Assembly: GCF_008630915.1 (NCBI RefSeq)
Contig: NZ_CP043909.1
Location: forward strand, 1,488,001 to 1,552,000
DNA: 64,000 bases
Direction of reading: 5' to 3'
Source of the DNA: Acinetobacter suaedae
GTDB lineage: Bacteria > Pseudomonadota > Gammaproteobacteria > Pseudomonadales > Moraxellaceae
Shown here: piece by piece, positions 1-10,254 of the stretch
How the letters are laid out: each line of letters begins with the position of its first letter
Position numbering within the stretch: the stretch's first letter is position 1
Notes under the pieces: model-generated
What the model was told of the DNA's origin: nothing
The model's input: the letters and a program-made list of their open reading frames with translations, nothing else
The model's database searches: none
Translations under genes and position numbers: made by a program

Positions 1-550
1 ATACGGTATAACCGTCTGGATGTAAGGCACGGATGGCTAGCCAATCTGCAAAGCTGGTTCCTGTTGAGTAAAATTTTTCTCCGTTTAAAAGGTATTGACC
101 ATTTTCCAAAGTTAAAGTGGTTTGAATGGCTTTAGTATCTTTGGAATTTTTTTCAGGTCCTCCATTGGCAATCCGTTTACCCGCAAGTACTTCAGTATAG
201 ATAAACTGCTTTTGAGCATCTGAACCGGTGATATTGATAAAATTGAGTAGCCCGAATTGGTTTTGAGGAATCTGTCCGACATTGGCATCGGCTTTACTTA
301 AAATACGAAACACATGAGCTAAGGTTTTATTGGAGACAAAAGCACCTCCATATTGTTTTGGAATACGAATACCGCCTAAGCCCTTTTGACTCAACAGATG
401 AATTTGTTCCGTTGGCAAAATACGATTTTGATCTCGTTTATTTCGTTCTTCTAATGCAAAGTCAGCAACTTGATAGGCGGCATTGATGGCCTGCTGATCA
501 TTTAAAATCAGTTGTACTGGAGTTTGGATCACTGATGGATTACTGGACAT
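1..550 (-). CDS. SfnB-type flavin-dependent oxidoreductase (acyl-CoA dehydrogenase fold), 3' end cut off
   Basis: Reading leftward from the ATG at 550, 183 codons are present before the window edge. The protein shows the N-terminal helical domain of the acyl-CoA dehydrogenase/DszC-like flavin monooxygenases: IRIPKQYGG near residue 70, then ADANVGQIPQNQFG and LLNGEKFYSTGTSFADW, which closely resemble SfnB proteins. SfnB-family enzymes are linked to use of organosulfur compounds (sulfone/sulfonate desulfurization) under sulfur limitation and work with a reduced-flavin supply. The rest of the enzyme, including the C-terminal helical domain, lies outside the window, so completeness cannot be judged. 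The family is well supported; the exact substrate is not. Confidence 0.75.
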   Translation of the reverse strand, partial: MSSNPSVIQTPVQLILNDQQAINAAYQVADFALEERNKRDQNRILPTEQIHLLSQKGLGGIRIPKQYGGAFVSNKTLAHVFRILSKADANVGQIPQNQFGLLNFINITGSDAQKQFIYTEVLAGKRIANGGPEKNSKDTKAIQTTLTLENGQYLLNGEKFYSTGTSFADWLAIRALHPDGYTV

Positions 551-908
551 GTAAACACCTCTAATAGACAAGAGGGACTTTACATAAAAATTACTTTTCA
601 ACTAAATTAGAAGTTTTGACTTAGATATCATAATAATTATTAAGCATTTTTTTTGAGAAAAAGCACATAAAAAGTAATATGGAATTTAATGGTAAAACAA
701 ATATTTAACTCTTTAAGACGTTTTCTTAATTCTTAAGGTCTATGCTTTTATGAAGTATATGAATATTTTCACCTTAAAAACATATAAATATTTTTAGCCA
801 AAATTTAAAAAAGATAGAGCAAAAACGACATTGTAATCATTCACTTTTACTTCTAAAGTATCAAAAAGCTTATGTTTGATCGAATAGAAAAATAAATTTG
901 GAGTGTTT
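551..908. other. Gene-free divergent intergenic region
   Basis: This 358-bp, very AT-rich stretch lies between the divergent SfnB-like gene and the GST gene, so it should carry promoters for both. I see no convincing coding frame, RNA gene or strong palindrome. No GG-N10-GC sigma-54 element was found on the SfnB side. Confidence 0.6.
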
Positions 909-1679
909 ATGCGGGTTTTATACCAATTTCCTTTATCTCATTATTGTGAAAAAGCTCGCTGGTTGTTAGATCATAAAGAATTGGACTATGTTGCTCATAA
1001 TTTAATTCCAGGTTTTCATCGTGCGTTTACTTATTTAAAATCAGGGCAAAATTATTTGCCGATGTTGAAGGATGATAAGCAGTGGATTGCAGATTCAACG
1101 CAAATCGCTCTGTACCTTGATAGTACTTATCCTGAGCATGCTTTGCTACGGCGTGATGAACAATTACGTGAACAAGCCATTGAGATAGACAAGCTTGCAA
1201 ATGAATTGGGTGTTCATGTGCGTCGTTGGTCATTGGCACAAGCGCTTTCCACTAGTGATCATCCGCTTGAAATTATGATGGGTGAACAAGGTTATTTGCG
1301 TCAATTTGAGAAATTTTCAAAGCCAATTCTTAAAAGTCTGGTGGCTTCAAACTACCAGTTAAATCCAGAAAAAGTCGCCCATTCCAAAGTGCGTATGACA
1401 GAGTTGATTACTGAATTAAATCAACGTTTGATCGACAATCAAGGTCGTTATCTCGTTGGTGATCGTTTAGGGTTGGCTGATATTTCAGTTTGTTCAATGC
1501 TCGCGCCATTATTGGTGATGAAGGGAACTCCTTGGGAGTTGGAAAATGATGATGTTGATCAATTTGGTGGAGAGTTAAAAGAATATTATGACTATTTGTT
1601 AGATCTTCCACTTGGACAATATGTTCAACGCATTTATTCAACTGAGCGTAATGCACGTGTGGATTGGCGTGGTATTTAA
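909..1679 (+). CDS. Glutathione S-transferase family protein
   Basis: A 256-aa protein. The first ~80 residues form a thioredoxin-like GST N-domain (YQFPLSHYCEKARWLLDHK, then LPMLKDDKQWIADSTQIALYLDSTYP with the cis-Pro/ADS glutathione-binding region). The rest is the all-helical GST C-domain, including YLVGDRLGLADISVCSMLAPL. The start is the ATG at 909, preceded by GGAG at 900-903; a GTG at 903 overlaps this ribosome site and is unlikely. Family members conjugate or reduce electrophiles with glutathione in the cytoplasm. The substrate cannot be inferred. The gene stands alone, with a 235-bp gap after it. Confidence 0.8.
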   Translation: MRVLYQFPLSHYCEKARWLLDHKELDYVAHNLIPGFHRAFTYLKSGQNYLPMLKDDKQWIADSTQIALYLDSTYPEHALLRRDEQLREQAIEIDKLANELGVHVRRWSLAQALSTSDHPLEIMMGEQGYLRQFEKFSKPILKSLVASNYQLNPEKVAHSKVRMTELITELNQRLIDNQGRYLVGDRLGLADISVCSMLAPLLVMKGTPWELENDDVDQFGGELKEYYDYLLDLPLGQYVQRIYSTERNARVDWRGI

Positions 1680-1914
1680 TCTATTTTTTACTTTAAATCT
1701 AATGGTTAAACTGGGTATAAATTACTTAGTTTAATTTATTAGATGAACGATCAAAGGATGTACATATCTAATCAGGTCGAAATTTATCAATTTAATAAAA
1801 GAAGTAAGACAATCGGCTAATCAATAAAACACAATTGTATATATAATAATTCATACCGTACGAGTCGGTTTTAAGCTGTGATCCAGCTAAGAACATAAAA
1901 ATAGAGGGAATACC

Positions 1915-2298
1915 ATGAAAACATTGCAATTTATAGCGGATTGCCCTAAACATGGGTTAATTGATCATCCACCTAATGAATGCTATATCACCCAAGAATA
2001 TGTGGCTGCATTATTATATAAACAATTAGAACAATACGGTTTTGATGCCCAGCATATGCGTCATGAACATGAAAAAATTGAAGTTTGTATCGACAATCAC
2101 CAGTTGCCACTTTCTATTCTATGTTCACAGCAAGATTCGGAAGGTCATATTTTGTGTGAGATCACAGCAAATCCTCAACAAGAACAAGCTTGGTTTGAAA
2201 AGATTGAGACACAAAGCATTATCCGTCAATTGGCCCAAGCTGTTGAAAATAGTTTAAAAGCTGAACATAGTTTTTCTAAATTTGTATGGAAAAGTTAA
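1915..2298 (+). CDS. Hypothetical protein, 127 aa
   Basis: A soluble, acidic protein with no signal peptide or membrane segment and no family I recognise. The ATG at 1915 follows a good ribosome site (AGAGGGA, ~1902-1908). Four cysteines and several histidines are scattered, including an early CPKHG, but no clear metal motif is formed. Upstream, two small hairpins (ACCG/CGGT near 1856-1870 and AGCTG/CAGCT near 1874-1888) lie in the leader; the first is followed by TTTT. It precedes pepD on the same strand by ~100 bp but has no visible functional tie to it. Confidence 0.6.
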   Translation: MKTLQFIADCPKHGLIDHPPNECYITQEYVAALLYKQLEQYGFDAQHMRHEHEKIEVCIDNHQLPLSILCSQQDSEGHILCEITANPQQEQAWFEKIETQSIIRQLAQAVENSLKAEHSFSKFVWKS

Positions 2299-2401
2299 GT
2301 TAGTTTTCAATATGTCATCTTAAATGAAGTGATTTAACATCATGACCGTTTCGGTGTATGGTGTATATTTGTTTAAACGCTTTATTTGAGAGTATATGTG
2401 C

Positions 2402-3862
2402 ATGATACAGGTCGATTTTTCTAAATTATCTCCCCAAGTGGTTTGGCGACATTTTGAGACTTTGTGCACAATTCCTCGACCATCAAAACATGAACAACAA
2501 TTACGACAGCATCTCAAAGATTGGGCGGAACAGTGCAACCTAGAAACCTATGTCGATGATATTGGTAATCTGATTATTCGAAAAGCTGCCACAGCTGGTA
2601 AAGAACAAGTTGCAGGTGTAATTTTGCAGGGACACTTAGATATGGTGACTCAGGCAAATCGTGGTACGCAACATGACTTTTTTAAAGATCCGATTCGACC
2701 TGTATTAAAAGATGGTTGGCTGATTGCTGAAAATACTACGTTGGGTGCTGATAATGGTATCGGAGTTGCACTGGCGTTGGCGGTATTAGAATCAGATGAT
2801 ATTGCGCATGGGCCGATTGAAGTACTTTTGACGATTGATGAAGAAGCGGGAATGAGCGGTGCCCGTTTGCTTAAATCGGGTGTTTTAACGGGGCAATGGT
2901 TATTTAATATTGATACCGAAGAATGGGGTGAACTCTATCTTGGTTGTGCTGGGAGTATTGATATTGAAGTACAACAGCCTATCCAATATCAAACAGCACC
3001 TAGTGATTTAATTTATGTAGATTTGTTGGTGTCAGGCTTAAAAGGTGGTCACTCTGGTGTTGATATTCATCTTGGTCGTGGTAATGCCAATGTGATTTTA
3101 GCCAATTTCTTAAATGATTATTTGACACAATCAAATGGCAGACTGGTTGAATTTGTCGGTGGAACAGCGCGCAATGCCATCCCACGTGAAGCGGTAGCAA
3201 CCATTGCAATTAAAGCAGAGCAATTATCAGAATTAGAAAATGCCGTTGCAGTTGTACAAAAAGAATGGCAACAAAAACTACAAGGTATTGATGATCAACT
3301 GCAAATTACCTTTCAACAAAATGCCAATCAGATCAATGAAGTGATTGTGCTGCATCAACAACAAGCTTGGTTGCAGGCATTGGCAACGTGCCCATATGGC
3401 ATTGCGCAGTGGAGTCGTGCTTTAGCTGATGTGGTTGAGACCTCAAATAATATTGGTGTGGTCAAATTGACTAAAGATGAGGCGAAGACTTTAATTATGG
3501 TTCGTTCTATGGTGAACCAAGAAGCACTAACATTTGCCCAGAATATCCAACAGCACTTTGCCAATTTTGAAATTCAGTCTGAGTTAACGCCATTGGTGTC
3601 GGGTTGGACACCAAATCCAGATTCAGCGGCATTGAAGTGTTTACAACAGGCTTATCAGAGCGCATTTGAAATTGAACCGAACTTGAAAGTGATTCATGCG
3701 GGCTTGGAATGCGGCATTATTGCGGAACATTATCCTGATTTGCAGATGGTGTCTTTTGGCCCGGATATTCAAGGGGCGCATGCGCCTGGTGAGCGGGTTA
3801 AAGTCGATACTGTAGAGAAATGCTGGAAGTTGTTGGTGACGGCTCTGGAATCTGTAAAATAA
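2402..3862 (+). CDS. pepD: Aminoacyl-histidine dipeptidase (cytosol non-specific dipeptidase PepD)
   Basis: About 486 aa, the usual PepD length. M20-family zinc peptidase motifs are in order: GHLDMVTQ (first metal His with catalytic Asp), NTTLGADNGIGVALALAVL (bridging Asp), IDEEAGMSGA (catalytic Glu pair), the lid-domain GGHSGVDIHLGRGNAN, and a C-terminal HAGLECGII with metal ligands. It hydrolyses Xaa-His and other dipeptides in the cytoplasm. Two ATGs are possible: 2396 sits only 3 nt after the GAGAG at 2388-2392, while 2402 is 9 nt away and was preferred. It converges on rtcA and shares its terminator hairpin. Confidence 0.9.
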   Translation: MIQVDFSKLSPQVVWRHFETLCTIPRPSKHEQQLRQHLKDWAEQCNLETYVDDIGNLIIRKAATAGKEQVAGVILQGHLDMVTQANRGTQHDFFKDPIRPVLKDGWLIAENTTLGADNGIGVALALAVLESDDIAHGPIEVLLTIDEEAGMSGARLLKSGVLTGQWLFNIDTEEWGELYLGCAGSIDIEVQQPIQYQTAPSDLIYVDLLVSGLKGGHSGVDIHLGRGNANVILANFLNDYLTQSNGRLVEFVGGTARNAIPREAVATIAIKAEQLSELENAVAVVQKEWQQKLQGIDDQLQITFQQNANQINEVIVLHQQQAWLQALATCPYGIAQWSRALADVVETSNNIGVVKLTKDEAKTLIMVRSMVNQEALTFAQNIQQHFANFEIQSELTPLVSGWTPNPDSAALKCLQQAYQSAFEIEPNLKVIHAGLECGIIAEHYPDLQMVSFGPDIQGAHAPGERVKVDTVEKCWKLLVTALESVK

Positions 3863-3870
3863 ATTTTTAT

Positions 3871-3900
3871 AGAAAAGAAGCTCATTCATGAGCTTCTTAA
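3871..3900. terminator. Bidirectional terminator between pepD and rtcA
   Basis: A perfect 11-bp inverted repeat (3875-3885 with 3888-3898) overlaps the rtcA stop codon. On the minus strand it is followed by TTTTCTATAAAAAT, giving a good T-tract for the rtc operon. On the plus strand the tail is weaker. Confidence 0.75.
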
Positions 3901-4943
3901 ACTTTGACAATGACCTGAAACAGATTTTTGTCTAGTTCAATAAATTCAGTTTCACAATCAATAAATTTTTCAATCATCGCGGCTTGAGTGCGAGTATGTT
4001 CGCTAATAGATTGTGCGGTAAATTCACCACCTTGCCCCAATGCCAAAGGTAATAGCAACTGATCCGCTAAATACTCATCTACTACAGCTTGAGAAGCAAT
4101 ATATCGTTTCACCTGTTTCGCCAAATGATTGGCAATTTGTTCTGCACTTTTGCGCATTTCACCTAAAGCAGTAAATAGCTGAACGTGATGTTGATATTCA
4201 ACTTTAACATACGCTGTATTGCCTTGGCTGATTCCATTTAAATGGAATTGCTGCTGAGTATCTAATTTCAGTCTTTTATTTAAAGTGGCTAATTCTCGTT
4301 GTGCGATTTGCGCTTCTTCGGAAAGGTTGAGTACTGCTGCAAAAGCCTCAGTGCTTTGCAAAGTACCACGATCTAATAGGCTTAACTTGTTTCGATGTTG
4401 CCAAGGCTGAATCTTGATTTGAATTTCACCAGCACCAATCGGGAAGAAGCCTGCTTTGTTTAACTTAAACTCGACCTGTATTCCAAGTTTTTCTAATGCA
4501 GGCAAAAAGCATTGCTCGATAAAATCTGCCGTTGGCGCAAGCGGGTTGTGAGTGCCACCAGAAATAGTCAATTCACTTGCTTCATTTTGCAATAACAAAG
4601 CAGGTAATAGCGTCTGTAAAACCAGTGTTGTACTTCCTGCTGAACCAATCTGGAATTGGTATTCTCCACTCTGTACATGCTGTGGTGCGAAGTACAATCG
4701 CTGGCTATGGAGTTCAGCACCTTCCACATACGCTTGGCTGATGTGTTGAGATGCCTGTACACAGACTAAATGCTGACGCATTAAGCCTGGTTTTTTACGC
4801 CCAGCACGAATGTTGATTAATTCAAATGCTTGACCTGTAATCATCGAAAGAGCTAGGGCAGTTCTTAAAATCTGCCCACCACCTTCACCTTGTGAACCAT
4901 CAATTTGGATGGCTGCTGGCATATTTGCCAAAGCTTTATTCAC
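3897..4943 (-). CDS. rtcA: RNA 3'-terminal phosphate cyclase
   Basis: A 348-aa protein. RtcA converts RNA 3'-phosphate ends to 2',3'-cyclic phosphates via an adenylylated histidine. Visible marks are the N-terminal IDGSQGEGGGQILRTALALSMITG nucleotide/RNA-binding signature, the central IGSAGSTTLVLQTLLPALL, and the C-terminal YLADQLLLPLALG followed by SEHTRTQ, whose His is the expected adenylylation site. The start is a GTG at 4943 with AAGGA eight bases upstream; the next ATG (4922) has no such site. It is the last gene of the rtcB operon, separated from its upstream neighbour by 253 nt that hold a structured RNA candidate. Confidence 0.95.
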   Translation of the reverse strand: MNKALANMPAAIQIDGSQGEGGGQILRTALALSMITGQAFELINIRAGRKKPGLMRQHLVCVQASQHISQAYVEGAELHSQRLYFAPQHVQSGEYQFQIGSAGSTTLVLQTLLPALLLQNEASELTISGGTHNPLAPTADFIEQCFLPALEKLGIQVEFKLNKAGFFPIGAGEIQIKIQPWQHRNKLSLLDRGTLQSTEAFAAVLNLSEEAQIAQRELATLNKRLKLDTQQQFHLNGISQGNTAYVKVEYQHHVQLFTALGEMRKSAEQIANHLAKQVKRYIASQAVVDEYLADQLLLPLALGQGGEFTAQSISEHTRTQAAMIEKFIDCETEFIELDKNLFQVIVKV

Positions 4944-4972
4944 TTCTATTTTCCTTATTTTCTAATTTAATG

Positions 4973-5159
4973 AACATACTGTCAGTACATGGTAATGCGA
5001 AGTAACGCGTGACTTTGCTTTTAGCAAAGGTTTGCTAGGTACATGGTGCTGAGCCTAATCAGTGAAGATTGATGCATGACTCACATGCTGCCATAGCCGC
5101 CTGAATTATTTTCAATCCCTCAAGCGGACGCAGGATCTTGTACTCGCCCAGTATGCCCA
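4973..5159 (-). ncRNA. Candidate structured RNA between the DIP1984-family gene and rtcA
   Basis: This gap is visibly more GC-rich than its surroundings, has no ORF, and folds well. The two ends pair: 4975-4981 with 5149-5155 (7 bp), then 4984-4989 with 5139-5144 (6 bp) across a small internal loop. Inside are a 9-bp stem (5097-5105 with 5119-5127), a 5-bp hairpin (5074-5088), and two overlapping hairpins (5013-5029 and 5022-5037). The motif GTACATGGT occurs twice (4985, 5039). Paired ends plus an rtc operon recall bacterial Y RNAs; a multicopy Acinetobacter C4-like sRNA is another possibility. Strand is uncertain: the minus strand is co-directional with the operon and has a weak -10-like CATAGT just before 5160, while a plus-strand terminator-like hairpin lies at 5168-5195. 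Confidence 0.5.
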
Positions 5160-5196
5160 AACTATGATTGTGAACTAGATCCACAAAATTTTTTGT

Positions 5197-5655
5197 TTAT
5201 TCGATTAAATCAATCTGCCAGTTTGCAGCCTGAATTTTGATGTTTAAGTCGCGTAGCTTTGCGCTGATATCATCGGCTTGTTTTTGCAAGCTAGAAACAG
5301 GGATAACCTTCTGCCACTTGATTTCACGAGCACTATAACGGTCGGGTTCACGATGGGTATTAGCAATCGCATTAATCAGAATCTTATGCTGTTCTGTATA
5401 ACTATCCCTTGAACTTAGAAGGGATAGCAATATTTTGCCATCCTCAAGTTTTGCTTGCGCATTGGTCAAATGAATACGACAAATCAGTTGATTGCTTTCT
5501 TGGGTTAAAGCAAACGCCTGTTTGATCAGTTCATTTGGGTCTTCACTCGGTTCATCGCCATCTTGTACCAATACATTGGCGTTGATCCGTTGTTTTAATG
5601 AAGCGAGCTTTTTTTGTTGATCGCTTCGCAGTAAAAGTGCTTCTGCGAGTTTCAT
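5197..5655 (-). CDS. DIP1984 family protein
   Basis: A 152-aa, helix-rich soluble protein matching the DIP1984 family (sometimes labelled septicolysin-like): MKLAEALLLRSD, the central NELI/QLICRIHLTNAQAKLEDGK, and a C-terminal REIKWQKVIPVSSLQKQADDISAKLRDLNIKIQAANW. The biochemical role of the family is not established. Alternating charged and hydrophobic residues suggest coiled-coil helices. The ATG at 5655 follows AAAGGT and lies 12 nt after the preceding gene, so it is co-transcribed with rtcB. That placement suggests, but does not prove, a role in RNA repair or in handling the adjacent RNA. Confidence 0.75.
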   Translation of the reverse strand: MKLAEALLLRSDQQKKLASLKQRINANVLVQDGDEPSEDPNELIKQAFALTQESNQLICRIHLTNAQAKLEDGKILLSLLSSRDSYTEQHKILINAIANTHREPDRYSAREIKWQKVIPVSSLQKQADDISAKLRDLNIKIQAANWQIDLIE

Positions 5656-5667
5656 TTTATTTACCTT

Positions 5668-6051
5668 TTATTCAATCTGTAAAATGACTAATTTTGAAAT
5701 ACTTTCCAATTGCATACCGATTTTTGCAAACTCAATAACTTCATCTAAAGTTTCATTCTCATGCCAAGTGGTTATAAAACAGGTATTAATTGGCGGTTCA
5801 TTGTTATAAAAAGCTACATAAGTCTCGTCTAAAACATCATCCCAAATAGAGCATTCATGTCCTGTCACCATTGCCTGAATGCATCGTTTTGAATAGACAA
5901 TCTGCTCACAAATCCAATTACGCCATTCAGGCAGAATTTGCTTAGTATCCACAATGAGAATAATGTAATAGGGTTGCTCAGGTAGAACGAGATGAGCTTC
6001 TTCATTTGCCCTGATTCTACAGCTCTGAATATCTAAACAATCCTTTTTCAT
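5668..6051 (-). CDS. Unrecognised 127-aa protein in the rtcB operon
   Basis: I do not recognise this protein. It is soluble and acidic, with no signal peptide. It carries a buried-looking PYYIILIVDT strand, a Cys/Trp-rich middle (WRNWICEQIVYSKRCIQAMVTGHECSIWDDV), and a hydrophobic C-terminus. The ATG at 6051 has AGGGG five bases upstream and lies 2 nt beyond the rtcB stop (6054-6056); an overlapping GTG at 6057 is possible. Tight spacing to rtcB means it is translated with the ligase. The likely fold is a small alpha/beta domain, but no catalytic motif is evident. Its position makes it a candidate accessory factor of the RNA-repair system. Confidence 0.7.
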   Translation of the reverse strand: MKKDCLDIQSCRIRANEEAHLVLPEQPYYIILIVDTKQILPEWRNWICEQIVYSKRCIQAMVTGHECSIWDDVLDETYVAFYNNEPPINTCFITTWHENETLDEVIEFAKIGMQLESISKLVILQIE

Positions 6052-6053
6052 TA

Positions 6054-7325
6054 TCACCCCTTAACACAAACAACTTGTCTTAATGTATAAACCACTTCAA
6101 CCAAATCGCTTTGTGCTTTCATCACATCTTCAATCGGTTTATAAGCCGATGGAATTTCATCAATCACAGCCGCATCTTTTCGGCACTCTACACCTTCAGT
6201 TTGCGCAATCTGATCCTCTACAGTAAAGCGACGTTTTGCTTCAGCACGGCTCATTACACGTCCTGCACCATGTGAACATGAACAGAACGATTCCTGATTT
6301 CCAAGCCCACGAACGATAAAAGACTTTGCACCCATTGAACCTGGGATAATTCCATATTGTCCAAGTTTGGCACTTACAGCGCCTTTACGGGTCACCATCA
6401 CTTCTTCGCCGTAATGTTCTTCCTTTTCCACATAGTTATGGTGGCAGTTTACGGCTTCCAAACGTGCTTGGAACGGTTTCGGGATAATGGTTGCTAAGGC
6501 TTTAATCGCAGATTGCATCATGATTTCACGGTTTTTCATCGCGAAGCGTTGTGCCCAACCTACAGCAAACCAGTAATCATCAAAATGATCTGTTCCTTCG
6601 ACTAAATATGCTAAATCTTTGTTGGGTAAGTTAATAAAGTGCTTTTGCATATCTTTGCGAGCAAGCTCAATAAAATGATTACCGATGGCATTACCCACAC
6701 CACGAGAACCTGAGTGCAACATAATCCAAACATGATCATGTTCATCCAAACAGACTTCGACGAAGTGATTTCCTGTACCTAAAGTTCCTAACTGTTTTCG
6801 GTTGTTGGTGTTTTTTAGGCGAGGATGCTTGGCACAAATCAACTCAAAGTCGGCAACTAAATCTGCCCAAGCTTGATCCACCATTTCAGGTGGATTTTCC
6901 CAAGAACCACGATCTCGTCCTCGGCCTTTGGTCATCCCATGTGGGATCAAACGTTCAAGTTCAGTACGTAAAGCATGTAAGTTATCAGGTAGATCTGAAG
7001 CAGTTAGGCTGGTACGAGTTGCCATCATTCCACACCCAATATCAACACCGACAGCAGCAGGGATAATCGCACCTTTGGTTGGAATGACACTTCCAATCGT
7101 TGCACCTAAACCAAAGTGAACGTCTGGCATCACAGCCATCCATTTATAAATAAAAGGCATTTGAGCTGTTTGTAGCAATTGTTGTTTTGAGTTGTCATCA
7201 ACAAGGACGCCATTGGTCCACATTTTTACAGGCATGCTGTTTTCATTTTGAAGTACTTGATAAGCACGTTGTTGCTGTTCTTGTTCAAATTGAGCTTGTT
7301 GGTTGATTTGTTCAACGACAGACAT
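6054..7325 (-). CDS. rtcB: RNA ligase RtcB (GTP- and Mn-dependent 3'-phosphate/5'-OH RNA ligase)
   Basis: About 423 aa. RtcB seals 2',3'-cyclic phosphate or 3'-phosphate RNA ends to 5'-OH ends through a GMP-histidine intermediate. Signatures seen: GAIIPAAVGVDIGCGMMAT (metal Cys), LGTGNHFVEV, HSGSRGVGN, NCHHNYVEKEEHYGEEVMVTRKGA (candidate guanylylated His), GSMGAKSFIVRGLGN, and FCSCSHGAGRVMSR. The ATG at 7325 has AAAGGA eight bases upstream. An in-frame extension to 7391 is rejected because it would have to be encoded by the leader hairpin at 7344-7372. It is the first gene of the operon, downstream of a sigma-54 promoter. Confidence 0.95.
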   Translation of the reverse strand: MSVVEQINQQAQFEQEQQQRAYQVLQNENSMPVKMWTNGVLVDDNSKQQLLQTAQMPFIYKWMAVMPDVHFGLGATIGSVIPTKGAIIPAAVGVDIGCGMMATRTSLTASDLPDNLHALRTELERLIPHGMTKGRGRDRGSWENPPEMVDQAWADLVADFELICAKHPRLKNTNNRKQLGTLGTGNHFVEVCLDEHDHVWIMLHSGSRGVGNAIGNHFIELARKDMQKHFINLPNKDLAYLVEGTDHFDDYWFAVGWAQRFAMKNREIMMQSAIKALATIIPKPFQARLEAVNCHHNYVEKEEHYGEEVMVTRKGAVSAKLGQYGIIPGSMGAKSFIVRGLGNQESFCSCSHGAGRVMSRAEAKRRFTVEDQIAQTEGVECRKDAAVIDEIPSAYKPIEDVMKAQSDLVEVVYTLRQVVCVKG

Positions 7326-7343
7326 TTTCATTTTCCTTTCTAA

Positions 7344-7372
7344 ACCTGCCTGCCAAGCGTTTGCAGGCAGGT
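7344..7372 (-). promoter_or_regulatory. Hairpin in the rtcB mRNA leader
   Basis: A perfect 10-bp GC-rich inverted repeat (7344-7353 with 7363-7372, 9-nt loop) lies between the inferred sigma-54 start (~7403) and the rtcB ribosome site, ending about seven bases before the AAAGGA. It is not followed by a T-tract, so it is not a terminator. Confidence 0.6.
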
Positions 7373-7413
7373 GATATTCACAAGATCCCAATGATGTTGT
7401 GTGCTTATACTAT

Positions 7414-7430
7414 TGCAGTGACTGTGCCAA
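7414..7430 (-). promoter_or_regulatory. Sigma-54 promoter of the rtcB operon
   Basis: Minus-strand TTGGCACAGTCACTGCA matches the -24/-12 consensus with the invariant GG-N10-GC spacing. It lies ~90 bp upstream of the rtcB ATG, exactly where an RtcR-activated operon should start. Confidence 0.85.
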
Positions 7431-7538
7431 CTTTTTTAAATTTAATTTTAATAATTAATAAGAACTTGATAATTAAATAAAATGATTTTTTGAAATATCT
7501 TTCAAACTGCGATCTATGCTTAATGTTAATAAATTTAT

Positions 7539-7570
7539 TATATCTTATAATATATAAATATATCTTATAA
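7539..7570. promoter_or_regulatory. Direct repeat upstream of the sigma-54 promoter, possible RtcR sites
   Basis: TATATCTTATAA occurs exactly twice (7539-7550 and 7559-7570), with starts 20 bp apart, about two helical turns. It lies ~110-155 bp upstream of the -12/-24 element, the usual range for enhancer sites of sigma-54 activators. The low base complexity weakens the case. Confidence 0.35.
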
Positions 7571-7622
7571 AATATTTATTTTGTTGTGAATTTTATCAGG
7601 CTCCTCACATACTGCAGACTTA

Positions 7623-8585
7623 TTAATATTTTTCAATTTTTGTAAGCTGACCTGTTTCATCTAAGCTAAATTGATCGAAATCATGGGCCAAATAAAAATT
7701 GCCTGTATAGAATGTTTTTACCTCCTCAGCAATCGCTTGCTGCCCAGTGTTATCCTGATGACGTGGACTAAAGTGTGTCAGGATCAGATTGCTTAGATTT
7801 TGATGTTGAGCAAATTCTGCAACCATCTTTGCTGAACTATGCATAGGACCTGAACCTACTTTATCTAAAATCGCTTGAGTGTAGGTACTTTCATGAATTA
7901 AGAGTTGGGCATCTTGGCAAGCTTGTGCCAATAACTCGGGACGATTATTATCTCCACCCACAATGGTATGAACACGTTTAGTTTGTAACTGAATAAAATC
8001 AGTTGCTTTTAATGTTTCCCCATTAAATTGAATGTTCTGACCTTGTTGTAAGTCACCCCAAGCTTTACCTTTGGGTATGCCGAGTTGAATTAAAGCCTGT
8101 GTATCTAATTTCTTTTGTGTGTTTTGAGCAATAATACTAAATGCAAAACTGGGTACACGATGACTCAATGGATGGGCTTGAATTGAAAGTTCATCCGTTA
8201 TTTGTTGTATTTGAGCCGCTTCATTCACATCAATAAAGTTAAGTGGGTAGGGCAAATGTAAATCCGTGAGCTGTGCCGTAACTTCAATCCATTGTTGAAT
8301 TTGTTTGGGGGCGATAATAGTTAAAGGTGCAGTACGGGCATTCATACCTGCACTGGCCAATAAGCCAACCAAACCATAACAATGATCGCCGTGAACATGG
8401 GTAATACAGATGGCAACTAGGCTTTGTAATGCAAGTTTCGCCTGTTGAATACGATGCTGGGTACCTTCACCAGCATCGACCAAAATCCAGTCTTTATTCT
8501 TGCTGTTACGGATGGCTAGGCCAGAGACATTGCGTGTGAGTGTGGGTACACCAGAAGAGGTACCTAAAAAAGTAAAATGAAGCAT
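7623..8585 (-). CDS. rnz: Ribonuclease Z (tRNA 3' endonuclease)
   Basis: About 320 aa, a typical short-form RNase Z. It is a metallo-beta-lactamase fold zinc hydrolase that trims tRNA 3' trailers. Visible motifs: FLGTSSGVPT at the N-terminus, ILVDAGEGTQHRI, CITHVHGDHCYGLVGLL (metal motif HxHxDH), a GGDNNRPEL segment, LIHESTY, and the C-terminal LILTHFSPRH. The ATG at 8585 gives the expected N-terminus; a GTG at 8603 would add six residues. It sits between rtcB and rtcR, with a ~290-bp upstream region for the rtc promoter on one side and a 67-bp divergent gap to rtcR on the other. Confidence 0.9.
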   Translation of the reverse strand: MLHFTFLGTSSGVPTLTRNVSGLAIRNSKNKDWILVDAGEGTQHRIQQAKLALQSLVAICITHVHGDHCYGLVGLLASAGMNARTAPLTIIAPKQIQQWIEVTAQLTDLHLPYPLNFIDVNEAAQIQQITDELSIQAHPLSHRVPSFAFSIIAQNTQKKLDTQALIQLGIPKGKAWGDLQQGQNIQFNGETLKATDFIQLQTKRVHTIVGGDNNRPELLAQACQDAQLLIHESTYTQAILDKVGSGPMHSSAKMVAEFAQHQNLSNLILTHFSPRHQDNTGQQAIAEEVKTFYTGNFYLAHDFDQFSLDETGQLTKIEKY

Positions 8586-8617
8586 ATTGTTGGAATTTTT
8601 CACTGAAATGCGTATTG

Positions 8618-8652: not shown

Positions 8653-10254
8653 ATGCTGAATGCAAAGAAAACTGTCGTGATTGGCTTTGTTGGTTCTACT
8701 CTAGATCAAGGAAAACGCCCTGATCGTTGGCAACGTTGGCGTCCGACTTTGAGTCTTTTGATGCATGAAGATTTGATTGTGGATGAACTGGTGCTATTGC
8801 ATGATCGACAGCATCATAATTTAGTTAAATTTATTGCTGAAGATGTGCAGGATGTATCGCCATCGACTATCGTGTCTGGACAGCGAGTGAGCATCCGTGA
8901 TCCTTGGGATTTTGCTGAGGTCTATGGTGCGCTATATGACTTTGTGAAAAGTTATCCCTTTGATACTGAAAAAAACAACTATCTTTTGCATATCACTACA
9001 GGCACACACGTTGCTCAAATCTGTTGGTATCTTCTGGTCGATGCCAATTACCTACCTGCTAAGCTGATTCAAAGTGCACCTAATCAGCAGAAAACACCAG
9101 AAGGTGAATATCGTATCATTGATCTGGACTTATCTCGCTACGATGTTCTCAAGCAGCGCTTTGAAGATGAGCAGCTACAAAACTGGCAACAGCTGAAAGC
9201 CAATATTTCAACCTATAACCACGAATTCAATCAACTGATCACTGAAGTTGAATTGGTTGCAACACGTTCTAGCGCACCAATCCTAATTATGGGCGCAACA
9301 GGTGTGGGTAAATCGCATTTAGCGAAACAAATCTATCAATTAAAGAAAAATAAGTTTCATTTAAGTGGGCGTTTTGTTGATGTGAACTGTGCGACGCTTC
9401 GTGGTGATAGTGCTATGTCGAGTTTGTTTGGGCATATCAAGGGGGCTTTTACAGGGGCAGCAGCTTCGCGAACAGGTTTATTAAAAAGTGCTGATCAGGG
9501 TATTTTATTTCTGGATGAAATTGGTGAGCTTGGGCTAGATGAGCAAGCGATGTTGCTTAAGGCACTCGAAGATAAATCCTTTTTTCCTGTTGGGAGTGAC
9601 AAAGAGGTTCAGGCCGATTTTCAGCTAATTGCGGGGACAAATAGAGATCTAAGAGCCGAAGTGCAAGCGGGCCGTTTTCGTGAGGATTTGTGGGCACGAT
9701 TGAATACATGGACTTTCTTTTTACCGAATCTTAAAGATCGAATTGAAGACATTGCTCCCAATATTGAGTTCGAGTTGCAACGCTTTTCGGCAAATCACCA
9801 ACGACAATTCCGTTTTCAGCGTGATGCACTTGATGTGTATTTGAAATTTGCCAAGTCGAAAGAAGCATCATGGCAGGGGAATTTTCGTGATTTGACTGCC
9901 AGTGTGACGCGGTTAGCGACATTATCCAATGGTGAGCTGATCTGTTCAGAAACGGTGGAAAAAGAGATTCAGCGTTTAAAGCAGTTGTGGTCGATCCAAA
10001 CTACACAATCTGTATCTAAAGAAACAGATATTTTACTTAAATATTTAGATCAAACGCAGCTGGGAGAGATTGATGAGTTTGATCAGATTCAGCTGCGTGG
10101 TGTACTTCAAGTGTGTGAAAATGCCAAATCGATGGCGGATGCTGGACGCCAACTGTTTGCAGCTTCACGCCAGCAACGCAATACCACCAATGACAGTGAC
10201 CGGGTCAAAAAGTATTTGGCCCGGTTTGGCTTGAGTTGGCATGATTTTCAATAA
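8653..10254 (+). CDS. rtcR: RtcR, sigma-54-dependent activator of the rtc operon
   Basis: A 533-aa protein. Residues 1 to ~185 form the CARF-type sensor typical of RtcR (VVIGFVGSTLDQGKRPDRWQRWRPTLSL, and HITTGTHVAQI). Residues ~190-420 are an AAA+ domain with Walker A GATGVGKS (214-221), the sigma-54 contact loop GAFTGA (~264-269), and Walker B ILFLDEIGEL. The C-terminal ~90 residues should hold the DNA-binding helices. In other bacteria RtcR is kept inactive by its sensor domain and switched on by RNA fragments with damaged ends, opening the rtcBA promoter. The partner promoter is at 7414-7430. Its stop abuts the stop of the DUF2157 gene. Confidence 0.95.
   Translation: MLNAKKTVVIGFVGSTLDQGKRPDRWQRWRPTLSLLMHEDLIVDELVLLHDRQHHNLVKFIAEDVQDVSPSTIVSGQRVSIRDPWDFAEVYGALYDFVKSYPFDTEKNNYLLHITTGTHVAQICWYLLVDANYLPAKLIQSAPNQQKTPEGEYRIIDLDLSRYDVLKQRFEDEQLQNWQQLKANISTYNHEFNQLITEVELVATRSSAPILIMGATGVGKSHLAKQIYQLKKNKFHLSGRFVDVNCATLRGDSAMSSLFGHIKGAFTGAAASRTGLLKSADQGILFLDEIGELGLDEQAMLLKALEDKSFFPVGSDKEVQADFQLIAGTNRDLRAEVQAGRFREDLWARLNTWTFFLPNLKDRIEDIAPNIEFELQRFSANHQRQFRFQRDALDVYLKFAKSKEASWQGNFRDLTASVTRLATLSNGELICSETVEKEIQRLKQLWSIQTTQSVSKETDILLKYLDQTQLGEIDEFDQIQLRGVLQVCENAKSMADAGRQLFAASRQQRNTTNDSDRVKKYLARFGLSWHDFQ

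Follow-up and report, generated by a model that had tools for sequence, protein, structure and literature searches.

What does the long gap in the RNA-repair operon of Acinetobacter suaedae encode? The window, meaning the whole stretch of 64,000 nt analysed here (NZ_CP043909.1, 1,488,001-1,552,000), carries on its minus strand, in order, genes for an RNase Z-like protein, RtcB, a DUF7684 protein and a DIP1984-family protein (DUF6847), then a 253 nt gap and rtcA, with rtcR divergent from them. An earlier note, made from the sequence alone, had proposed a structured RNA in this gap, either akin to the Y RNAs of other rtc operons or a multicopy C4-like small RNA (sRNA); its limits for the gap were exact, at 4944-5196, the DIP1984 stop lying at 5197 and the rtcA start at 4943. 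We consider it probable that the gap is a non-coding RNA gene, and that this RNA and DIP1984 form a two-component protein-RNA module. On the best reading, which is drawn by analogy, the module would resemble the Ro-Y RNA pair without being related to it, and would have been recruited into the RNA-repair operon. The RNA looks previously undescribed, because it has no Rfam match and no description of a DIP1984-linked RNA was found in the open-licence literature, searched mostly as listings.

The ends of the gap had been predicted to pair in an interrupted stem, and the closing structure of the RNA is of this form: helix P1 (seven Watson-Crick and two G-U pairs) is split from helix P2 (six pairs) by an internal loop of GGCG opposite GA. 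Its parts, in window coordinates, are as follows.

4973-5157, minus strand: conserved RNA core, 185 nt, from P1 to P1', delimited by the covariance model R1 and by covariation
5149-5157, minus strand: P1 5' strand, GGCAUACUG
4973-4981, minus strand: P1 3' strand, CAGUAUGUU
5145-5148, minus strand: internal loop, 5' side, GGCG
4982-4983, minus strand: internal loop, 3' side, GA
5139-5144, minus strand: P2 5' strand, AGUACA
4984-4989, minus strand: P2 3' strand, UGUACU

Compensatory changes, which the earlier note had proposed looking for among relatives, are abundant in these helices. From 114 distinct downstream regions, 85 were placed by script and 14 by hand, while 15 were omitted from the pair counts; the 99 placed regions gave 63 distinct sequences and, after thinning, 34 rows. 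Across these 34 diverse ends, changes on both sides were found in all 15 pairs (9/9 in P1, 6/6 in P2), 85.7% of cells were paired as against 53.7% when shuffled and 27-40% when slid, and the covariation score was 0.850 as against 0.262 +/- 0.021 shuffled and 0.12-0.18 slid, all counts that lean upward in that scripted placement selects for P1/P2 pairing. A search for the closing helices reached a score of at least 14 in 85/114 distinct downstream regions and in 0/342 dinucleotide shuffles. In the loop, the second G of GGCG and the G of GA are nearly invariant among the 34 sequences and the fourth base, G, is invariant; the first P2 pair beside it is A-U in 28 and U-A in four, these being the actinobacterial ones.

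A closer alignment, A3, consists of the window sequence and 27 thinned sequences drawn from 74, aligned by MAFFT without structure. Here 99.6% of P1 cells are paired and 8/9 of its pairs are doubly changed. Inside the closing helices, A3 points to an H-type pseudoknot made of P3 and P4 and to a further pairing, P6, that involves the loop of hairpin P5.

5132-5137, minus strand: P3 5' strand, GAUCCU
5114-5119, minus strand: P3 3' strand, GGGAUU
5120-5127, minus strand: P4 5' strand, within the P3 loop, CCGCUUGA
5097-5104, minus strand: P4 3' strand, UCAGGCGG
5079-5082, minus strand: P5 hairpin loop GAGU, which is the 5' side of P6
5051-5055, minus strand: P6 3' side, GGCUC, the five bases preceding AGCAC

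P3, P4 and P6 were spotted by eye on the same sequences later used for counting, which gave 93.9% of cells paired for P3 (n=28; 3/6 pairs doubly changed), 85.4% for P4 (8/8 doubly changed) and, in a partner-swap test of P6, 125 matched bases with each sequence's own partner as against 92.9 +/- 4.1 when partners were swapped (maximum 109 of 2000 swaps; 28 sequences). For P1-P4 together, in the 28 full-length sequences of A3, 94.4% of cells are paired as against 27-41% when slid, 24/29 pairs are doubly changed, and the covariation score is 0.491 as against 0.222 +/- 0.012. The minus strand fits as the transcribed one, given G-U pairs such as that at the base of P3, found in 25/28 sequences. Folding energy is moderately unusual (z of -2.39 on the minus and -1.45 on the plus strand, and -1.92 in the 185 nt core), which is no proof alone; it is the covariation that in our view settles the gap as a conserved structured RNA. 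A covariance model, R1, was built from A3, whose 28 sequences are from Moraxellaceae apart from one from another gammaproteobacterium; its match to the core in the window (contig positions 1492973-1493157, E 8.8e-27) arises by construction, this sequence being in the training set. Across the family the core measures about 140-195 nt.

The gap had also been described as free of open reading frames (ORFs). A 41-aa ORF is in fact listed at 5059-5184, although this is probably non-coding, because the A3 relatives differ by insertions and deletions not divisible by three. Nor is the gap richer in GC than its surroundings, as had been stated: its value of 0.403 compares with 0.407 for the DIP1984 gene and 0.412 for rtcA, and the RNA core alone, at 0.465, exceeds the window mean of 0.384.

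The partner of the RNA appears to be the protein encoded immediately upstream.

5197-5655, minus strand: DIP1984-family protein (DUF6847), the proposed RNA partner

Membership of this family is by curated cut-offs (PF20935, E 8.4e-47, 159.1 bits against 27; NF038048, E 1.6e-48, 164.7 bits against 70). Searches for the RNA and for DIP1984 were made in draws of 299 Moraxellaceae genomes with agreeing genome handles, and found the protein in 114, the RNA in 115 and both in 114. Behind DIP1984 and on the same strand lie 129 of the 130 RNA copies, 128 of them within 300 nt and at a median distance of 60 nt; conversely, two of the 127 DIP1984 places are not followed by the RNA. The sole genome with the RNA only (G248) has a partial match (C68:81457-81610; L208 5458-5611), 4 nt behind an IclR-family gene, which covers model positions 14-169 and so is without P1. 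Fragmentary DIP1984 matches in G205, G250 and G258 coincide with the three weakest RNA matches, and G055 (L217) retains rtcB and rtcA with both DIP1984 and the RNA absent. Split DIP1984 matches accompany strong RNA matches in G082 and G121. Tandem pairs of RNA copies occur in six genomes (G047, G063, G072, G092, G175 and G301). Three loci (L090 4001-5740, L091 4001-5690 and L195 6291-8741) hold two nearby DIP1984 genes, and RNA copies lie between these or follow them; the two genes of L195 are separated by a 434-aa protein that has no clear family.

The same arrangement is found well beyond the rtc operons. On plasmids, blastn detected sequences related to the gap in 344 records, and DIP1984 is likewise present on 344 Acinetobacter plasmid records; one of the first three plasmid records is a copy of the rtc operon, and the other two have the RNA directly behind DIP1984 with no rtc gene annotated in the stretch examined. 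A DIP1984-RNA pair 100% identical to that of pAB0057 lies on p2AB5075 (NZ_CP008708.1, L218) at 6194-6870. The RNA core is readable behind DIP1984 in Bacillota, Actinomycetota and Paracoccus, in plasmid and phage records of Enterococcus and in a viral contig, and R1, whose E-values are rough owing to a short calibration, found it directly behind DIP1984 at E <= 1e-4 in 12 of 14 non-Moraxellaceae loci on which it had not been trained. The match was weak in L129 (E 0.01) and none was found in L130, and one match in L194 (E 0.0023) does not follow DIP1984. Counted at the Pfam cut-off and including this genome each time, DIP1984 is patchy, being present in 114/299 Moraxellaceae, 2/274 Gammaproteobacteria and 3/249 Pseudomonadota; among relatives of a Lachnospiraceae genome it occurs in 7/196 of the class and 18/299 of the phylum. 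One record titled Streptomyces cinereus JCM 3040 (L100/G598) has the match coordinates of a Moraxellaceae genome (G139); it is probably mislabelled and was counted as Moraxellaceae.

Within flanks of about 1.7-8 kb, 22 non-Moraxellaceae DIP1984 loci gave no match to the rtcA, rtcB, rtcR, RNase Z or DUF7684 of the window, and ten neighbour proteins from seven such loci showed no recurring family. In the viral contig (L105), 18 Rfam tRNA matches (310-4670 and 8370-8442) adjoin DIP1984 and the RNA, 17 upstream and one downstream. The tie to the rtc genes drawn in the earlier note is thus replaced by one to DIP1984, to which linkage, plasmids and non-Moraxellaceae loci all point. Because the RNA lies nearly always directly behind DIP1984, in several phyla and on plasmids, the two probably work together, and the pair has spread as a cassette, accompanied by rtc genes or not.

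This distribution bears on whether the gap is instead a cis-acting element, such as a riboswitch, attenuator or leader for rtcA, or an element governing the stability of dip1984 mRNA. The location of the RNA between two same-strand genes and its constant position behind dip1984 are what such an element would show, but many loci have no rtcA behind the RNA (pAB0057, pACI-df08 and the 22 non-Moraxellaceae loci), the next annotated gene in pAB0057 is on the opposite strand, the RNA is duplicated in tandem in six genomes, and no terminator-like site was found on the minus strand at 4900-5700. We regard a cis-acting element as quite unlikely, although the RNA may autoregulate dip1984.

The mobility of the pair would also fit a toxin-antitoxin-like module, in which a growth-affecting DIP1984 would be restrained by the pseudoknotted RNA, as in the type III system ToxN/ToxI. 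A small protein and a pseudoknotted RNA do occur together on small plasmids and phage or viral records; their joint loss in L217, the weakest RNAs beside fragmentary DIP1984 in three genomes, and the tandem RNA copies are all compatible with this, the strong RNAs beside split DIP1984 genes being neutral. However, the RNA lies downstream of its gene, while ToxI lies upstream; the locus has no Rfam match, and ToxI is an Rfam family; DIP1984 has four helices and its family no assigned function; and the gene is located within a repair operon. Such a module is unlikely in our judgement.

As for DIP1984 itself, a structure has been solved in the family; in a structure search 3kdq alone stands out, although absence from that list does not exclude a ToxN-like fold, and the list contains no recognised RNA-binding relative, without excluding one. 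The window protein is unmatched in PADLOC and PHROGs, where relatives are matched weakly. DIP1984 proteins, of the family at 5197-5655 and on Acinetobacter plasmids, are sometimes labelled septicolysin; no support for a cytolysin was seen here. No paper on DIP1984 with RtcB, nor on DUF6847, was found in the open-licence literature. The abstract of Burroughs and Aravind from 2016 reportedly describes a tRNA-like RNA whose link is to Band-7 proteins rather than to DIP1984, and the present RNA may be mentioned in that work.

As for the Y RNA reading, rtc operons of Salmonella carry Rsr and Y RNAs (PMC7790460, PMC9879122). A divergent Ro-bound Y RNA would account for the long terminal helix with its internal loop, for T-arm-like hairpins in 9/34 relatives, and for the rtc operons that the RNA and Ro have in common in some genomes. 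Yet the search with the Rfam C4 and YrlA models that had been proposed yielded neither at the locus (window 4000-6000, E <= 5), where two chance-level rows were the only matches; at ten other DIP1984 loci no YrlA match fell on the RNA, and the sole row for YrlA, of 26 bits, belongs to a place within the L105 tRNA array. The absence of a Ro gene was correctly noted: PF05731 is unmatched in the genome to which the window belongs (G000). TROVE was found in eight of 199 Moraxellaceae genomes, in seven above the cut-off, and four of the eight carry DIP1984, one of those being below the cut-off. In the rtc operons of three of these four, all Acinetobacter (L213-L215), a Ro gene, identified by TROVE matches and checked against Pfam in L213 and L214, has after it a YrlA-like RNA (56-60 bits, E 5e-11 to 4e-10, under the Rfam cut-off of 69); several kb beyond comes DIP1984 with its own RNA behind it. 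In L213 a KptA/Tpt1-family gene follows rtcA. As these operons carry both Ro with a YrlA-like RNA and DIP1984 with its own RNA, rtc operons can apparently hold two different protein-RNA pairs. Identity with YrlA was rejected on the lack of an Rfam match, the lack of Ro in the genome and this separate YrlA-like RNA beside Ro, and even a divergent Y RNA is highly improbable. The suggestion of Y RNA-like features therefore stands in part: the RNA is structured and covarying, with paired ends and, in 9/34 non-Moraxellaceae relatives, tRNA-like pieces, but is not a recognisable Y RNA.

The other proposal, of a multicopy C4-like antisense sRNA sitting here by chance, has in its favour the abundance of such sRNAs in A. 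baumannii (PMC5320573). It fails on a gap sequence that is single copy in its genome, on the lack of a C4 match at E <= 5 and on the constant linkage to DIP1984, and can practically be discounted.

Returning to the protein-RNA module, a candidate site of contact is suggested by the part of the core between P2 and P6.

4991-5050, minus strand: AGCAC, then NNNNYAY heptads, ending in UACC

In 30 thinned sequences out of 94, YAY returns at 7-nt intervals ahead of the conserved YACC, 71 times in phase and at most 20 times in any other phase; by chance the in-phase maximum was 54 in 5000 rotations and 32 in 5000 letter shuffles. The signal is strong within Moraxellaceae (46 against 9) and weaker outside (25 against 13). 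The units in the window are CATGTAC, CTAGCAA, a hairpin-bearing unit, GCGTTAC and TTCGCAT, followed by TACC; the second deviates from YAY, and the hairpin (CUUUGC..GCAAAG) interrupts the region at 5013-5029. Such 7-nt spacing suggests a repeating protein contact.

A compact, short-loop pseudoknot was present in 18/23 non-Moraxellaceae RNAs as against 19% of shuffles, with a strict geometry that was chosen after viewing examples, so that this is supportive but not blind; a permissive scan of these RNAs did not discriminate (20/23 with at least nine pairs, against 67% of shuffles). The T-arm-like hairpin is seen in 9/34 non-Moraxellaceae regions, 0/80 others, which include the window RNA, and 0.4% of shuffles. 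A G-rich tail (GAGGG, 1-2 nt, GGG) is found in 28/34 non-Moraxellaceae regions, 0/80 others and 1.2% of shuffles, and a looser pattern in 31/34, 14/80 and 25%, respectively. Outside Moraxellaceae (e.g. L102, L122 and L141) this tail follows P1', and GGUAG often precedes P1, where it could pair with CUACC. Two DNA patterns for the RNA plus tail gave no match in viral_contigs. A terminator script placed sites behind the RNA in 6/31 regions, and missed one visible by eye in L129.

How the module might work can be sketched. DIP1984 would bind the conserved P1/P2 loop, the heptads or both, one protomer per heptad being conceivable, in a stable ribonucleoprotein whose RNA half, with its tRNA-like features, would serve as a scaffold or decoy. 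Acinetobacter would transcribe the pair together with rtcB and rtcA, controlled by RtcR and sigma-54, and so make it upon tRNA cleavage; the pair could then act on damaged RNA by tethering it, protecting it or presenting it to the repair enzymes, as Ro-Y RNA supposedly does in other rtc operons. Placement in rtc operons of Moraxellaceae, and beside the tRNA array of the viral contig, suggests such a role in handling damaged RNA, but loci other than these give no hint of it. A fuller version, in which DIP1984 oligomers would coat the heptad strand (one protomer per NNNNYAY) on a scaffold of P1/P2 and pseudoknot, the whole being a plasmid- or phage-borne module for handling cut tRNA as decoy, tether or protector that RNA-repair operons took over, in effect a second and independent invention of the Ro-Y principle, is rather doubtful.

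The remaining features of the operon are these.

3897-4943, minus strand: rtcA (TIGR03399, PF01137)
5668-6057, minus strand: DUF7684 protein (PF24733)
6054-7391, minus strand: RtcB-family RNA ligase (PF01139)
7414-7429, minus strand: putative sigma-54 promoter ahead of rtcB, TGGCACAGTCACTGCA, one mismatch
7623-8603, minus strand: RNase Z-like protein (best model TIGR02651, 263 bits, under its cut-off of 293)
8653-10254, plus strand: rtcR, the presumed operon activator (NF038308, 807 bits)

The other gaps of the operon had been put at 2 and 12 nt; the latter is correct (5656-5667), while rtcB and the DUF7684 gene, with the start positions listed here, overlap by 4 nt. An additional long gap of 231 nt (7392-7622) precedes rtcB. 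Sigma-54-like matches with up to two mismatches occur at chance frequency in the window (45 against 41.6 expected), and the site at 7414-7429 is suggestive by its position before rtcB and by nothing else; sigma-70-like sites (4-of-6) near the gap are likewise at chance frequency.

These findings add a class of structured RNA that is widespread and has no Rfam match, and by pointing to an RNA partner they provide a first lead on the function of DIP1984/DUF6847. They also make testable the question of what RNAs do in RNA-repair operons; AB5075, for which PMC5320573 names public RNA-seq data under GEO GSE75708, carries the pair on p2AB5075, such that existing data may show its expression.

Among known systems, tmRNA and tRNA have a likeness in the T-arm-like hairpin of some relatives and in the pseudoknot, but ARAGORN called neither in the window. 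C4 and the group 1 sRNAs of A. baumannii are also structured RNAs found in Acinetobacter, and differ in copy number, in sequence family and in linkage. The ToxI RNAs of type III toxin-antitoxin systems form an array of pseudoknot repeats upstream of the toxin gene; they share with the present RNA a pseudoknot, a small protein partner and a home on mobile DNA, although DIP1984 has no such array before its gene and is a four-helix protein. The parallel drawn above is with Ro/YrlA (RF02553). Here the protein is DUF6847 rather than TROVE, the RNA has an H-type pseudoknot and heptads, and outside Moraxellaceae it is found away from rtc genes (22 loci examined); in both systems, however, an RNA with paired ends, from a family that is partly tRNA-like, adjoins the gene that encodes its presumed partner protein, within rtcBA operons linked to RtcR, and L213-L215 have both pairs.
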